Assembly (NCBI RefSeq): GCF_000255115.2
Contig: NC_018068.1
Coordinates: forward strand, 744,001-808,000
DNA: 64,000 bases
Direction of reading: 5' to 3'
DNA from: Desulfosporosinus acidiphilus SJ4
GTDB taxonomy: Bacteria; Bacillota; Desulfitobacteriia; Desulfitobacteriales; Desulfitobacteriaceae
This document shows positions 8,618-25,171 of this stretch, piece after piece. The number at the start of each line of letters is the position of its first letter. The stretch's first letter is position 1. A program made the translations under genes and the position numbers. The notes below the pieces were generated by a model. The model ran no database searches. It was not told the DNA's origin and worked only from the letters and a program-made list of their open reading frames with translations.

Positions 8618-8639
8618 AGAGAAGTTCATCTTGTAGTCT

Positions 8640-8740
8640 GGCGATCTTAGCTTTCCTGCGCTGGCAAGCATTTGCTTTAAGCCTTAGATCCATGACTTTA
8701 GCGTCCCCCGCTTTCGCGAAGTTTACCCCAACCGAAAAAA
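8640..8740 (-). promoter_or_regulatory. Candidate c-di-GMP-I (GEMM) riboswitch
   Basis: On the minus strand the leader reads GGTAAAC, then a stem closed by a GAAA tetraloop (TTCGC-GAAA-GCGGG), then GGGACGCTAAAG, then ATGGATCTAAGG, a second stem and GCCAG. This reproduces the order of the GEMM-I core (GGCAAAC, GNRA-capped stem, GGGACGCAAAG, GGNCTAAGG, GCCAGG). The 3' part, normally GGTTGCC, is diverged, so the P1 pairing is not convincing by eye. An AT-rich promoter-like stretch lies just upstream (around 8740-8765). I infer that c-di-GMP controls termination ahead of the transporter. The related 3',3'-cGAMP subclass cannot be excluded. Confidence 0.6.
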
Positions 8741-18187: not shown

Positions 18188-18370
18188 TCAAGGCCTATGA
18201 GCTGTTCTCAGAAATTTTACAGGCAGTATTTGACTCAGTGAGGTTTCTTTTGCTTTATTGTCTTTTAAAGGCGGTTTATAGCTGGGAGCTAAGTCCAAGT
18301 AACGCTGCACATCTGAATTCGTTTTAAGGATCCGCTGAAGAATTTCTTCATTGTTAAGGCGTTCATTCAT
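18188..18370 (-). CDS. Small hypothetical protein downstream of eam
   Basis: 60 codons, not recognised. An AGAGGAG site ten bases before ATG and a helical, charged sequence (NNEEILQRILKTNSDVQRYL) support a real gene. It lies 57 bp after the eam stop on the same strand and could be co-transcribed. No signal peptide or membrane segment. Confidence 0.5.
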   Translation of the reverse strand: MNERLNNEEILQRILKTNSDVQRYLDLAPSYKPPLKDNKAKETSLSQILPVKFLRTAHRP

Positions 18371-18427: not shown

Positions 18428-19678
18428 CTAGGGGGTTTCATATTGGACAAGTTTGTCTTCCCAAGTTTTCAAAAGGGCTTGGTTCTCCTTGAGAGAGACA
18501 AGATATTGAGGCAGGATAGGGGTTTTGCCTCCTCCGTTCGGGGCATTGATGATATAGGTTGGCACGGCAAGGCCTGAAGTATACCCTCGTAAATGCTTCA
18601 TGACCTCAAGGCCCTCTTTTATACTAGGCACAAAATGACGCGTTCCTTTGACATTCTTAGCATGAAAAATATAGTAAGGTCGAATTCGGATTTTCAAGAG
18701 TTCTTGATTCAGTTTTTTCATGATTTCCGGCTGATGATTGATACCTTTGAGCAAAACAGCCTGATTTCCCAAGACCACACCGGAGGCAATCAGTTTATCA
18801 GCAGCCTTCTTAGCATCTTCGGTGATTTCCTGAGGATGATTAAACTGCGTGTTGATATAGATGGGAGGATACTTTGCTAAGATAGAACATAAATGGTCGT
18901 TGATACGCATGGGTAAGGTCACAGGGACTCGAGTACCCAGGCGTTTGATCTCCACATGAGGGATAGAATGAAGTTCGCTAAGAAGCCAGTCCAGAGTATG
19001 ATCATTTAAAAGTAAGGCGTCCCCTCCGGTCACTAAGACATCTCGGATTTCCGGGTTGGCTCGAATATAATCAAGAGCGGTTTTTAAGTCCGTCATCTTA
19101 GCGTGTAAGTCTGTTTCACCTATATTTCGACGCCGTTGGCAATGGCGGCAATACATGGCACACATGTTAGTGACATTAATAATTAAACGGTCCGGATATC
19201 TCCGGGTAATACAAGGTGCAGGATTGGTAAGAGCTTCGCCCATAGGATCTTCCTCTCCGAAATCGTCGCTGAGTTCCGCAAGGGAAGGTAATCCCTGGAG
19301 ACGAATAGGATCGGAAGGTTCAGTAATATCCATAAGACTAAGATAGTAAGGAGATATAGCCCAACGGAAGCTCCTTCCTATATGTTCAACTTCTGCACAT
19401 TGTTCAGCAGATAATTGAGGGAATAAGGCTTTTAAATCGTTTGCACTTTGAACACGATGCTTTAGCTGCCAGTGCCAATCCTCCCAATCCTGAAGCGTGG
19501 CATTAAAATAGTTTAAGATGTGTTCACGACGTTTTTGGATCAGCGCAGCATTCAAAAAACCTGTGGGGATCGTGAGGCACTTTTCGAGATAAGGCACGAT
19601 CTTTTGTTTGAGTTCAGATGCTCGCCGCAATGAAAACTGTCGGTTAGTATCCAATTCTCCATAGAGTTGTACTGCCAT
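18428..19678 (-). CDS. eam: Glutamate 2,3-aminomutase (radical SAM, PLP)
   Basis: Interconverts L-alpha-glutamate and L-beta-glutamate with SAM, a [4Fe-4S] cluster and PLP. The cluster motif is C173-AMY-C177-RH-C180, and PLP Lys385 sits in GGGGKTP-like NGGGKTP. Lysine 2,3-aminomutase has two Asp residues (293 and 330) that hold the lysine side chain. Here the same positions, with the identical 37-residue spacing and 7 residues before the PLP Lys, are Lys341 (FHAKNVKG) and Asn378 (YIINAP). That Lys/Asn pair is the published signature of the glutamate enzyme (Lys332/Asn369 in Clostridium difficile), so I favour Eam over KamA. GGGAGG lies seven bases before ATG (19678). Divergent from the BusR-like gene. 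Confidence 0.88.
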   Translation of the reverse strand: MAVQLYGELDTNRQFSLRRASELKQKIVPYLEKCLTIPTGFLNAALIQKRREHILNYFNATLQDWEDWHWQLKHRVQSANDLKALFPQLSAEQCAEVEHIGRSFRWAISPYYLSLMDITEPSDPIRLQGLPSLAELSDDFGEEDPMGEALTNPAPCITRRYPDRLIINVTNMCAMYCRHCQRRRNIGETDLHAKMTDLKTALDYIRANPEIRDVLVTGGDALLLNDHTLDWLLSELHSIPHVEIKRLGTRVPVTLPMRINDHLCSILAKYPPIYINTQFNHPQEITEDAKKAADKLIASGVVLGNQAVLLKGINHQPEIMKKLNQELLKIRIRPYYIFHAKNVKGTRHFVPSIKEGLEVMKHLRGYTSGLAVPTYIINAPNGGGKTPILPQYLVSLKENQALLKTWEDKLVQYETP

Positions 19679-19726
19679 CAAGATTCCCTCCCTGTAGTTT
19701 ATTTGGCAGAAATTAAAGCGTGCCTA

Positions 19727-19767
19727 ACTAACAACTCAATAGTATCATTTAAGTTGTTAGTAGTCAA
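19727..19767 (-). promoter_or_regulatory. eam promoter embedded in a perfect inverted repeat (operator)
   Basis: On the minus strand: TTGACT (19762-19767), a 17-bp spacer, then an extended -10 TGA-TACTAT (TACTAT at 19739-19744). A perfect 10-bp inverted repeat ACTAACAACT...AGTTGTTAGT has arms at 19727-19736 and 19752-19761. One arm lies in the spacer and the other over the expected transcript start (about 19732). This is classic repressor-operator geometry. The divergent BusR-like gene is the obvious candidate regulator. Confidence 0.8.
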
Positions 19768-19794
19768 GAGCATGATGCCTACTGAAGTTGGCTA

Positions 19795-19803
19795 TGTTAT
19801 AAT
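19795..19803 (+). promoter_or_regulatory. Extended -10 element for the BusR-like gene
   Basis: TGT-TATAAT at 19795-19803, 31 bp before the TTG start. No good -35 is visible, as expected for an extended -10. The operator arms end 34 bp upstream. Confidence 0.6.
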
Positions 19804-19833
19804 AGATTATATAGATTAAGGGGTTGAAAGAAT

Positions 19834-20436
19834 TTGGAACAAGCTCGTTATCAGGAGATAGCAATGGACATAGCTCACGCTATTATGATGGGAGAATATC
19901 ACGAAGGAGAAAAAATTCATGGCCGCTCTACGCTGGCAGGTCGTTATAACGTTTCTCCGGAAACTGTCCGCAGAGCCATTGCTATTTTGCAAAATGTCGG
20001 TGTTGTCATTGTCAATCAAGGGGTAGGTATCACGGTAACGTCCAAAGCGATGGCGGAAAAATTTGTTAAATCCTTCAATCAAAAAGGAGAAATTCAAATC
20101 TTTCTCGAAGATCTTAAGAAATTGATGGATCAGAGGCGGGAAAATGATTTAAAAATAGAAAGTCACCTTAATAAACTGCAAGGTTATGTAGACCGGATTA
20201 TGTCTCGTTGGTTGGATGTAGGTGAAATCGAAGTTGGTAAGAATTCTCCGGCTGTAGGAAAAACCTTGCGTGAGTTAAGGATACGCGAACGCACGGGGAC
20301 TACAGTTATTGCGGTGGTGCGGGATGGATCGGAGCAATTTTCTCCTGAGGCCAGTTTTGTCTTGCGCGGTGAGGATGTCTTATTGGCGGCTGGATCAGCC
20401 GAAGGGCAAATGAGATTACAACAGCTAATTTTGTGA
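19834..20436 (+). CDS. BusR-like GntR winged-helix regulator with RCK_C (TrkA_C) domain
   Basis: 200 residues: GntR-type wHTH (1-75; YQEIAMDIAHAIMMGEYHEG, RYNVSPETVRRAIAIL), a helical linker (85-125) and an RCK_C domain (126-200; IEVGKNSPAVGKTLRELRI, GTTVIAVVRDG, GEDVLLAAGS). This architecture and the NVSPET recognition helix match BusR of Lactococcus/Streptococcus, which represses the BusAB glycine-betaine importer when its RCK_C domain binds c-di-AMP. It starts at TTG (19834) behind AAGGGG. Divergent from eam, and followed closely by acpS. Ligand binding is inferred from family only. Confidence 0.85.
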   Translation: MEQARYQEIAMDIAHAIMMGEYHEGEKIHGRSTLAGRYNVSPETVRRAIAILQNVGVVIVNQGVGITVTSKAMAEKFVKSFNQKGEIQIFLEDLKKLMDQRRENDLKIESHLNKLQGYVDRIMSRWLDVGEIEVGKNSPAVGKTLRELRIRERTGTTVIAVVRDGSEQFSPEASFVLRGEDVLLAAGSAEGQMRLQQLIL

Positions 20437-20450
20437 TATGGAGTAGAAAC

Positions 20451-20807
20451 ATGTTTCCTGGTGTGGATATTATTGAAATCGAACGAGTGGCGGCTGCTTT
20501 GGCAAGGCAGCCTGGGTTAGCGGAACGGCTTTTTACAAGGCGGGAGCTGGAAAGCCTAAGCGGCAGGGGAATGCAAAGCTATGCGGCACGGTTTGCTGCC
20601 AAAGAGGCAGTTCTTAAAGCGATGGGAACGGGGCTGCGCGGCATGTCCTGGCATGATGTGGAAATCATCACAAGTCAAAGCGGAGAACCTCTTGTCCTTC
20701 TTAGTTCCCAAGCTGAGATTCAGTTGAAAGAAAGAGGGGGCTCGCAAGTTCGTGTGAGCTTATCCCATAACCAGACACAGGCCATAGCTTTTGCGATTTT
20801 AAGTTAG
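20451..20807 (+). CDS. acpS: Holo-[acyl-carrier-protein] synthase
   Basis: Transfers 4'-phosphopantetheine from CoA to Ser of ACP. The 118-residue product begins MFPGVDIIEIERV, with the Mg-binding Asp, and has RFAAKEAVLKAMGTG with the second metal ligand; the C-terminal RVSLSHNQTQAIAFAI is also typical. The start at 20451 follows TGGAG at seven bases; a GTG at 20433 overlapping the previous stop is an alternative. It sits in the common Firmicute order acpS-nnrDE-alr. Confidence 0.94.
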   Translation: MFPGVDIIEIERVAAALARQPGLAERLFTRRELESLSGRGMQSYAARFAAKEAVLKAMGTGLRGMSWHDVEIITSQSGEPLVLLSSQAEIQLKERGGSQVRVSLSHNQTQAIAFAILS

Positions 20808-23590: not shown

Positions 23591-25171
23591 ATGACTGACA
23601 ACAAGCATAATACTCATAATACCCTCTTCCATTGGAGTAGTTTCAGATTGAAATTAGTCTATGAAGGCTTGGGTATTGGCATTATCACGGGCTTAATCAT
23701 AGTATTGTACCGTTTCACTCTTGAACAGGCCGGACTTTTACTAACTCAAATTTATAATTTGATCAGTGCCAGACCGATCCTTCTTCTGCCTTGGGTGGGA
23801 GTGCTGATTCTGATAGGTCTCATTGTTGGCTTAATGGTTCAACATGAACCGATGATCAGCGGCAGTGGTATTCCCCAGGTGGAAGGGGTTTTATTGAGAA
23901 AATTATCCATGACCTGGTGGAAGGTTATTCTCGGCAAATTCCTGGGTGGAGTTTTAGCCATCGGAGCCGGCCTTTCTATGGGCAGGGAAGGCCCGTCCGT
24001 TCAACTAGGAGCTGCAGTCGGTCAAGGATTTAGCAAGATACTAAAACGAATTAATATAGAAGAGAAATATCTCATAACAAGTGGAGCAAGCGCAGGGCTT
24101 GCTGCTGCTTTTGGTGCACCTTTGGCCGGAGTAATGTTTGCTTTGGAAGAGGTTCACAAGAACTTTTCACCTCTTGTCCTTCTGTCGGCATTGTCTGCCG
24201 CCTTATCCGCTGACTTTATCACCAGTGAATTTTTTGGTTTAAAGCCGGTATTGAATTTTGCCAACCTCCACGACTTTCCTTTGCGCTATTATTTGTTCAT
24301 TATTATCCTGGGAATTATTATTGGTGTTTTAGGGGTCGCTTTTAATACAACGCTGTTAAAGACCCAGGATTTATATGCCAGGCAACGATGGCTGCCAAAA
24401 ACATTTTGGGTAGTTATTCCTTTAATGGTTTCCATAGTCTTGGGGCTTTTCTTACCTCAGGTTTTAGGAGGGGGTCATGAGTTGATTACCTCCCTCGTAA
24501 CCCAGGGTAATTTTACTTTAAAGCTCCTTTTAATTCTGATCGTTGTTAAATTTTTCTTCACCATGATTTGTTACGGTTCAGGGGCACCGGGCGGAATTTT
24601 CCTCCCGCTTCTGGCCATCGGTGCAATCATTGGAAATATCTACGGAATTGTAATTGTTCATCTTTTTGGCATTAATAACACGTATGTTAATAACTTTATT
24701 ATTCTTGCTATGGCTGGTTATTTCACAGCAATCGTCAGGGCCCCGATTACTGGAACGATATTGATTACAGAAATGACGGGTTCATTTACTCATTTGCTTT
24801 CCTTGTCCGTTGTATGTATTTCAGCTTATATCGTAGCGGACTTTTTAGGTTCTAAACCTATTTATGAGTCCTTATTAGAAAGGTTTTTGCACAAACAGGG
24901 AACGCTGGCCCCCATAGGCAGCGGAAAGACTAAAGCTATCTTGGAATTCGCCGTGTGCATGGGATCAATGCTGGACGGCAAACAAATTAAAGAGATTAAA
25001 TGGCCGGCTCATTGCTTGCTGGTGTCCGTCAAACGTGGAGAAGAAGAAATCATTCCCAAAGGGGATACAGTGATTTACCCTGGAGATTACCTAATCGTTC
25101 TTACGAACGATGACAAAGTTTCCAAAATAAATGATGTTATGATTTCAATGGTTGGAAGCTGCGAATTGTAA
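23591..25171 (+). CDS. ClC-type chloride transporter with C-terminal RCK_C domain
   Basis: 526 residues. The ClC core (1-430) shows GSGIPQVEGVL, GREGPSVQLGA with the gating Glu, FALEEVHKNFS at the position of the intracellular proton Glu, and GSGAPGGIFLPL. The two glutamates suggest a Cl-/H+ exchanger rather than a channel. Residues about 445-526 form a TrkA_C/RCK_C domain (FAVCMGSMLDGKQIKEI, GDTVIYPGDYLIVLT), a class that in other transporters binds regulatory nucleotides such as c-di-AMP. It is 42 bp after alr and ends at a bidirectional-looking terminator. Confidence 0.92.
   Translation: MTDNKHNTHNTLFHWSSFRLKLVYEGLGIGIITGLIIVLYRFTLEQAGLLLTQIYNLISARPILLLPWVGVLILIGLIVGLMVQHEPMISGSGIPQVEGVLLRKLSMTWWKVILGKFLGGVLAIGAGLSMGREGPSVQLGAAVGQGFSKILKRINIEEKYLITSGASAGLAAAFGAPLAGVMFALEEVHKNFSPLVLLSALSAALSADFITSEFFGLKPVLNFANLHDFPLRYYLFIIILGIIIGVLGVAFNTTLLKTQDLYARQRWLPKTFWVVIPLMVSIVLGLFLPQVLGGGHELITSLVTQGNFTLKLLLILIVVKFFFTMICYGSGAPGGIFLPLLAIGAIIGNIYGIVIVHLFGINNTYVNNFIILAMAGYFTAIVRAPITGTILITEMTGSFTHLLSLSVVCISAYIVADFLGSKPIYESLLERFLHKQGTLAPIGSGKTKAILEFAVCMGSMLDGKQIKEIKWPAHCLLVSVKRGEEEIIPKGDTVIYPGDYLIVLTNDDKVSKINDVMISMVGSCEL

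Follow-up and report, generated by a model that had tools for sequence, protein, structure and literature searches.

The window analysed here (64,000 nucleotides, positions 744,001 to 808,000 of contig NC_018068.1 of Desulfosporosinus acidiphilus SJ4) contains a divergent gene pair. On the minus strand lies eam (18428-19681), encoding a glutamate 2,3-aminomutase of the radical S-adenosylmethionine (SAM) and pyridoxal phosphate (PLP) type, and on the plus strand the gene for a GntR-RCK_C regulator of the BusR family (19834-20436). Between them is a bipartite, BusR-like operator, ACTAACAACT-N15-AGTTGTTAGT (19727-19761), which reads AAC-N23-GTT at the BusR positions here and GAC/GTC in some relatives. 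It occurs once in the window and in none of 100 shuffles. This work concerns the pair, its operator, and their possible place in osmotic control by cyclic di-AMP (c-di-AMP).

The aminomutase scored 702.1 bits against the NCBIfam equivalog TIGR04368, for which the cut-off is 650. The score against the lysine 2,3-aminomutase model TIGR03820 was 452.5 bits, under its cut-off of 525.4, and the arginine 2,3-aminomutase model likewise stayed under its own. Eam carries the radical SAM CxxxCxxC motif and the PLP lysine motif. In an alignment with the lysine 2,3-aminomutase 2A5H, both substrate aspartates, which we take to be Asp293 and Asp330, are replaced, by Lys and Asn. The preliminary description of this DNA had placed this pair at residues 341 and 378, which is correct when counting from the ATG at 19678; this is the likely start, one codon inside the listed TTG, from which the residues become 342 and 379. 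Among the loci collected, all 82 distinct homologues of at least 58% identity have the Lys/Asn pair; below 58% identity (n = 16), 14 have Asp/Asp and two Lys/Asn. A lysine aminomutase was ruled out by the sub-cut-off TIGR03820 score together with the Lys/Asn pair. Judged from its sequence, the enzyme would make beta-glutamate. Ruzicka and Frey reportedly described a glutamate 2,3-aminomutase of C. difficile that makes this product. Beta-glutamate is a compatible solute with slow turnover in methanogens and is present in a few bacteria (PMC1224877). In methanogens an aminomutase route was excluded by nuclear magnetic resonance (PMC1224877), and an Eam route here would therefore be bacterial.

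The regulator matched Pfam GntR and TrkA_C (= RCK_C), both above cut-off. Its best sequence matches in the PDB, by phmmer, were the BusR entries 7wjg (Streptococcus mutans) and 7b5t (Streptococcus agalactiae), and a profile search of the PDB put the same two first. An AlphaFold model (mean pLDDT 88.7, pTM 0.47) has a long helix at residues 71-127, and Foldseek ranks 1 to 13 were all BusR chains, bearing out the BusR architecture proposed for this divergent gene in the preliminary description. TM-scores against whole BusR chains were low (0.37-0.53), which may reflect hinge angles. The modelled RCK_C domain alone superposed on the c-di-AMP-bound RCK_C of BusR at 1.2 Å over 72 columns. With the DNA-contact and c-di-AMP pocket residues of BusR taken from PMC8517857, the contacts R38, R53, basic 54 (Arg), G70 and G72 were found to be kept in 66 of 66 regulator homologues; the K36 position is His in the window's regulator and in 43 of 46 close homologues.

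A promoter scan placed an eam -35 box, TTGACT, at 19762-19767 and an extended -10, TGA-TACTAT, at 19739-19744, both on the minus strand; the -10 is inside the operator, and TTGAC is conserved in relatives. The likely eam promoter is thus TTGACT-17-TACTAT with TGn, running from 19767 to 19739. Shuffled sequences average 0.9 matches to such hexamers, which were rejected as stand-alone evidence. One operator arm (19752-19761) falls between the -35 and -10 boxes and the second, at 19727-19736, directly downstream of the -10; the perfect 10-bp inverted repeat thus wraps the -10, as had been described. A likely -10 of the regulator, TATAAT with TGn (19798-19803, plus strand), was recognised by eye outside the operator, with no clear -35; it is seen in most members of the genus, and the promoter scan did not recover it.

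An alignment of 44 distinct sequences, comprising the window and relatives and including four loci without eam, gave 1.34 and 1.63 bits per column for the operator arms and 0.79 for the spacer. The flanks gave 0.86 over 30 bp on the regulator side, which contains the -35, and 0.29 over 25 bp on the eam side. The operator of genome G055, a weaker variant, was aligned by eye, and G024 and G029 were left out because there is no operator there. At the BusR positions the left triplet is usually AAC or GAC and the right one GTT, GTC or GGC, with 23 bp separating the two. AAC/GTT is the most frequent combination; left GAC and right GTC occur together in four of the 44 sequences. Two loci of a family with a tandem gene order have a spacing of 22, with GTG as the right triplet.

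The preliminary description had suggested a survey of relatives for co-occurrence of the two genes and for the palindrome, and both recur. The survey took in the window's genome and 59 relatives, 60 genomes in all. Eam was above cut-off in 43 and the regulator was present in 48 (47 complete and one, that of G012, truncated at the end of its contig); one more match, the 49th, lies in G038 and spans RCK_C only. The pair was found in 41 of the 43 eam genomes, the window's own included, adjacent and divergent in every case. Eam occurs without the regulator in G038 and G043. The converse, a regulator with no eam above cut-off, is seen in G009, where eam is present but broken, and in G020, G023, G024, G028, G029 and G031. 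The operator lies upstream of the regulator in 45 of 48 loci (at least 16 of 20 positions; the second-best place in each stretch reached 12-14). G024, G029 and G055 fell below this threshold. In G024 (L068), genes recognised by eye as transposase-like stand upstream of the regulator, where eam and the operator would otherwise be. Among organism-named loci, 32 of 80 have eam beside the regulator, all within the first 52 rows; they include Desulfosporosinus acididurans, D. metallidurans, D. hippei, D. lacus and D. nitroreducens. The closest named regulators are those of Desulfosporosinus sp. FKB (96% identity) and D. acididurans M1 (95%). In the phylum at large, 398 genomes were searched; 87 have a member of the regulator family (E ≤ 1e-20) and 136 an eam over cut-off.

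A one-mismatch search for the operator led to unlinked loci. A strict pattern, TRMCAACY-N15-RGTTGTYR with no mismatches on both strands, gave 123 matches in the 60 genomes as compared with seven for the reversed pattern used as control. Most of these sites were counted on both strands, and the seven control matches represent at most seven sites; the pattern was drafted after viewing the eam operators and the matches of looser scans, and the 123 therefore include its source sites. Strict matches occur in 41 of the 48 genomes that have the regulator and in one of the 12 that lack it (Fisher p ~1e-6, shared ancestry not removed). After merging contexts with identical flanks, and with genome G417 from outside the 60 included, 75 distinct contexts were classified. 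Thirty-four were at the eam/regulator locus (eam and regulator in 32, regulator alone in two) and 41 elsewhere.

Away from the eam/regulator locus, 34 of the 41 contexts precede genes for solute synthesis, transport or the cell wall, a figure that is descriptive because the reference proteins for the classes were chosen after the loci had been inspected. Sixteen precede ablA and/or a polar amino-acid ATP-binding cassette (ABC) transporter, the transporter alone in three; five an EhuB ectoine-type transporter; five betaine-type transporters (ProV/OpuCA/OpuAC); one otsAB; one a fused phosphatase-mannitol-1-phosphate dehydrogenase; and six NlpC/P60 proteins. Targets were named by NCBIfam on one representative each and by blastp to that representative for the remainder. 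The NCBIfam scores, each over its cut-off, were 629 bits for AblA, 211 for AblB, 299 for EhuB, 964 for OtsAB, 439 for MtlD and 467 for ProV, and Pfam recognised NlpC/P60, OpuAC, trehalose and mannitol domains among the targets. For the polar amino-acid transporter, no equivalog over cut-off names a solute. At the one-mismatch level otsAB appeared again in G017, G018 and G021, and the phosphatase-mtlD pair in G017. Seven contexts have no recognised target: by eye two are inside coding sequence and one is terminator-like. Exact sites with no recognised target lie in three relatives, G018, G021 and G002 (L120 4198, L121 4032 and L199 1532), and two more, in G032 and G031, have no target assigned.

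The preliminary description had argued that synthesis, not uptake, of osmolytes is controlled here. The tie between a BusR-type protein and an osmolyte-synthesis gene holds, through the conserved pair and its operator; the restriction to synthesis was too narrow, as the operator in relatives also precedes betaine and ectoine-type importers. In the window's genome no exact site precedes such proV/opuC/ehuB-type genes. The second exact site of this genome, besides the eam operator, is at C3:2516858 (L223 3359), 56 bp before an NlpC/P60 hydrolase gene, and one-mismatch sites lie at C3:653412 and C3:1840637. The second aminomutase gene of the genome was considered as a further operator-controlled osmolyte gene and rejected: neither the exact nor the two-mismatch search placed a site nearby, and its neighbour looks fermentative.

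The window's genome encodes a CdaA-type diadenylate cyclase and has four c-di-AMP riboswitches over cut-off. Three of them precede genes identified by Pfam, one for citrate synthase and two for NlpC/P60 proteins, and the last precedes a gene that resembles NlpC/P60 by eye. The riboswitch before citrate synthase, at C3:247807 (L138), stands on a route to glutamate, suggesting that precursor supply is gated by this messenger too. No c-di-AMP riboswitch (ydaO/yuaA, RF00379) was found at the gathering threshold in the window, the eam leader included, and control of the window's eam by such an RNA was rejected. Within the order, this riboswitch lies in the eam leader, in the same orientation as the gene, in 16 of 36 loci (7 of 20 plus 9 of 16), the window being among the 20 without, and in none of four loci without eam. 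The 36 loci are those of the 43 eam genomes other than G012, G037, G038, G041, G043, G048 and G054. Outside the order it was found in 19 of 23 eam loci (L170-L189, L193-L195), namely three of three regulator-eam tandem loci of another family and 16 of 20 further loci of the phylum, the 20 being the best-scoring rather than a random draw. With riboswitches in so many eam leaders, the target of this repressor is commonly a c-di-AMP gene. G032 has a c-di-AMP riboswitch beside the operator at an ectoine-type transporter.

We favour, with reasonable confidence, a reading in which a BusR-family repressor, most likely fed by c-di-AMP, controls eam according to the osmotic state of the cell. Its claim that a BusR-type repressor controls osmolyte synthesis has good support. 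The regulator would read osmotic state, most likely through c-di-AMP on its RCK_C dimer, and as a tetramer would hold both half-sites of the 35-bp operator, excluding RNA polymerase from the eam promoter. At high c-di-AMP, in the absence of osmotic distress, eam would be off; upon osmotic upshift c-di-AMP would drop and the repressor be released. Eam would then convert L-glutamate to beta-glutamate, with which the cell would retain water. In many relatives the same repressor would also stand over ablAB, for N-acetyl-beta-lysine, over trehalose and mannitol synthesis, over betaine and ectoine-type import, and over NlpC/P60 wall hydrolases. The c-di-AMP riboswitch on eam would often be a second gate for the same signal in relatives, with the window's eam having the repressor site only. 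We lean only slightly towards the broadest form of this proposal, that in the Desulfosporosinus lineage a single c-di-AMP-fed BusR-type repressor is in charge of much of the making and import of compatible solutes together with NlpC/P60 wall trimming, on eam often stacked on a riboswitch.

A number of observations, taken up here and in the next four paragraphs, weigh against this reading. With one mismatch allowed, the operator search is noisy, giving 370 matches as compared with 176 for the control in the 60 genomes. In the window's genome, two mismatches gave nine sites as compared with 24 for the control, so there is no enrichment. There are only two exact sites in this genome, and the wide regulon is therefore a property of relatives. 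The operator spacing is 23 here and 22 in published BusR. BusR requires GAC motifs 22 bp apart, and adding 5 bp or removing 10 bp abolishes recognition (PMC8517857).

The nature of the ligand is a further point. The KtrA pocket is formed by I163, I164, D167, I168, R169, A170, N175, I176 and P191 (PMC7288161), and that of BusR by residues including I153, G154, N157, V158, W159, H160, A164, T165, I166 and P181 (PMC8517857); residue numbers in the two lists are always ten apart. In this numbering frame the window's regulator has L145, R146, R149, I150, R151, E152, T157, V158 and A173. The hydrophobic positions 153, 158 and 166 and T165 are kept; N157, W159, H160 and P181 are not. In 46 of 46 close homologues N157 is replaced by K, R or Q, H160 by E and W159 by R, in 42 of 46 P181 is replaced by A, and the autoinhibition patch W159/F182 of BusR is lost. 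These changes suit a regulator that binds the operator and controls osmolyte genes with an RCK_C domain sensing ionic strength, K+ or another ligand. Direct sensing of ionic strength is the main rival to c-di-AMP, given that L. lactis BusR was once described as ionic-strength dependent (Romeo 2007, cited via PMC5924519) and that RCK domains such as that of MthK, chains of which are among the Foldseek matches, bind ions. The replacement at W159, however, is the Arg found at KtrA position 169, which is invariant in 66 of 66 regulator homologues, the hydrophobic pocket positions are retained, and the KtrA RCK_C:c-di-AMP entry 4xtt is matched by the regulator profile at 2.8e-8. Genes with the operator are, moreover, also riboswitch genes, as seen with eam in many relatives and the ectoine-type transporter of G032, and in the window's own genome riboswitches stand on NlpC/P60 genes, to which class the gene at its second operator site also belongs. 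A regulator of this kind that does not use c-di-AMP appears unlikely. Pocket residues and gene overlap with riboswitches together make c-di-AMP the likely ligand of the regulator.

The operator is retained without an over-cut-off eam in G020, G023, G028 and G031, and the selected role of the regulator in those genomes is therefore not eam. This retention points to a second use of the site, in autoregulation or in expression of a small open reading frame (ORF) behind eam. Taken further, it would make such a use the main function of the operator and eam a passenger. The small ORF has homologues in five named loci without eam, and in all five the operator is present at 0 or 1 mismatch. This is difficult to reconcile with the position of the repeat, which overlaps the -35/-10 region of eam, while the likely -10 of the regulator is 36 bp past the end of the repeat. 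The conservation of the eam -35 TTGAC together with the operator, and the recurrence of the site at unlinked loci, before ablA and further solute genes, also argue for control of eam, and a passenger role seems rather improbable.

Outside the order both genes are present in 42 genomes and adjacent in only three. Such rare adjacency, along with the conserved gene order around the locus and the presence of the -35 within the conserved block, might indicate that the pair is a gene-order fossil kept by descent and the repeat merely a conserved promoter. This is highly improbable, as the arms are better conserved than the spacer that bears the -10 and recur at unlinked genes. The three adjacent genomes, of one genus (G177, G208 and G258) in another family, have regulator and eam in a different, tandem arrangement.

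Finally, no report of beta-glutamate from Desulfosporosinus was met in the literature searched. Eam could instead serve amino-acid catabolism or make a beta-amino acid that is not an osmolyte: KamA-type enzymes can be fermentative, and the second aminomutase gene of this genome adjoins a kdd-like gene (L077; recognised by eye, Pfam below cut-off). In relatives, however, the operator of eam is also found at ablA, otsAB and genes for mannitol and betaine, and Na+ and c-di-AMP riboswitches mark eam as an osmotic gene (Na+: PMC9337991). A catabolic Eam is accordingly improbable, and control of eam as an osmolyte gene by the BusR-type repressor is preferred.

In lactic acid bacteria BusR is known to repress a single betaine importer. 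The BusR proteins of S. agalactiae, S. mutans and Lactococcus lactis (7b5t, 7b5y, 7oz3, 7wjg; PMC8517857) have the same GntR winged helix-turn-helix, long coiled-coil helix and RCK_C as the regulator described here and share most of its DNA-contact residues; in both cases a pair of GAC-like half-sites, separated by about three turns, lies over a promoter. They differ in their target, which is busAB only, whereas the regulator here would act on a gene for synthesis, and its counterparts in relatives on several genes, for import as well as synthesis. The regulator further differs in its spacing of 23 rather than 22, its KtrA-type Arg in place of Trp159, and its lack of the autoinhibition patch. 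The RCK_C domains of KtrA, KhtT and CpaA, known c-di-AMP receptors (PMC8517857, PMC7288161), share the fold and an Arg169-type pocket. They are parts of transport subunits, in contrast to the regulator, and do not bind DNA. CosR of Vibrio cholerae belongs to another protein family than BusR, and we know of no c-di-AMP link for it. It provides a likeness as a single transcription regulator over both osmolyte synthesis and import (PMC5924519).

At the RNA level, White et al. (2022) described a tandem Na+/c-di-AMP riboswitch on ablA of Dehalobacter sp. CF, by which c-di-AMP shuts off ablA, the step to N-acetyl-beta-lysine; Na+ riboswitches were reported with both ablA and eam (PMC9337991). As in the proposal made here, c-di-AMP turns off an osmolyte 2,3-aminomutase; the differences are RNA control of elongation as opposed to a repressor of initiation, and ablA as opposed to eam. 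The c-di-AMP riboswitch on eam in relatives is of the same kind, and this class of RNA is found on the same gene classes as the operator (eam and the ectoine-type transporter of relatives, NlpC/P60 in the window's own genome), though not on the window's eam. The preliminary description had taken c-di-AMP control of osmolyte synthesis for a control point not previously described, which cannot be upheld, since riboswitch control of ablA is already published (PMC9337991). A search of open-licence PMC papers found no report of eam or ablA under a BusR-type protein. What would be new is that the remit of a BusR-type regulator extends to osmolyte synthesis, a claim that is partly supported and has been widened here to import.

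If the proposal is correct, one messenger often closes eam twice in relatives, at initiation and at elongation, and lineages of the window's type have one lock. The BusR family would then join osmolyte synthesis, import and wall remodelling in the anaerobic relatives of Desulfosporosinus, on whose osmoregulation little was found in the literature searched. The proposal predicts beta-glutamate as a solute of Desulfosporosinus. Species with both sensors or either offer a natural comparison of protein and RNA sensors of c-di-AMP on one gene.

The small ORF behind eam (18188-18370, minus strand, just downstream) encodes 60 residues with a conserved N-terminus. Homologues were found in 26 of 110 loci searched, and the ORF had no Pfam match. 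It is possibly co-transcribed with eam and would then be a co-regulated small protein. On the other side, acpS (20433-20807, plus strand) overlaps the stop codon of the regulator and is followed by genes that are nnr-like and alr-like by eye. A ClC-type chloride channel or exchanger near the regulator (23591-25171, plus strand) has a C-terminal TrkA_C (RCK_C) domain and is a possible further c-di-AMP target. A c-di-GMP-I riboswitch was recorded at 8629-8737 on the minus strand (53.6 bits).

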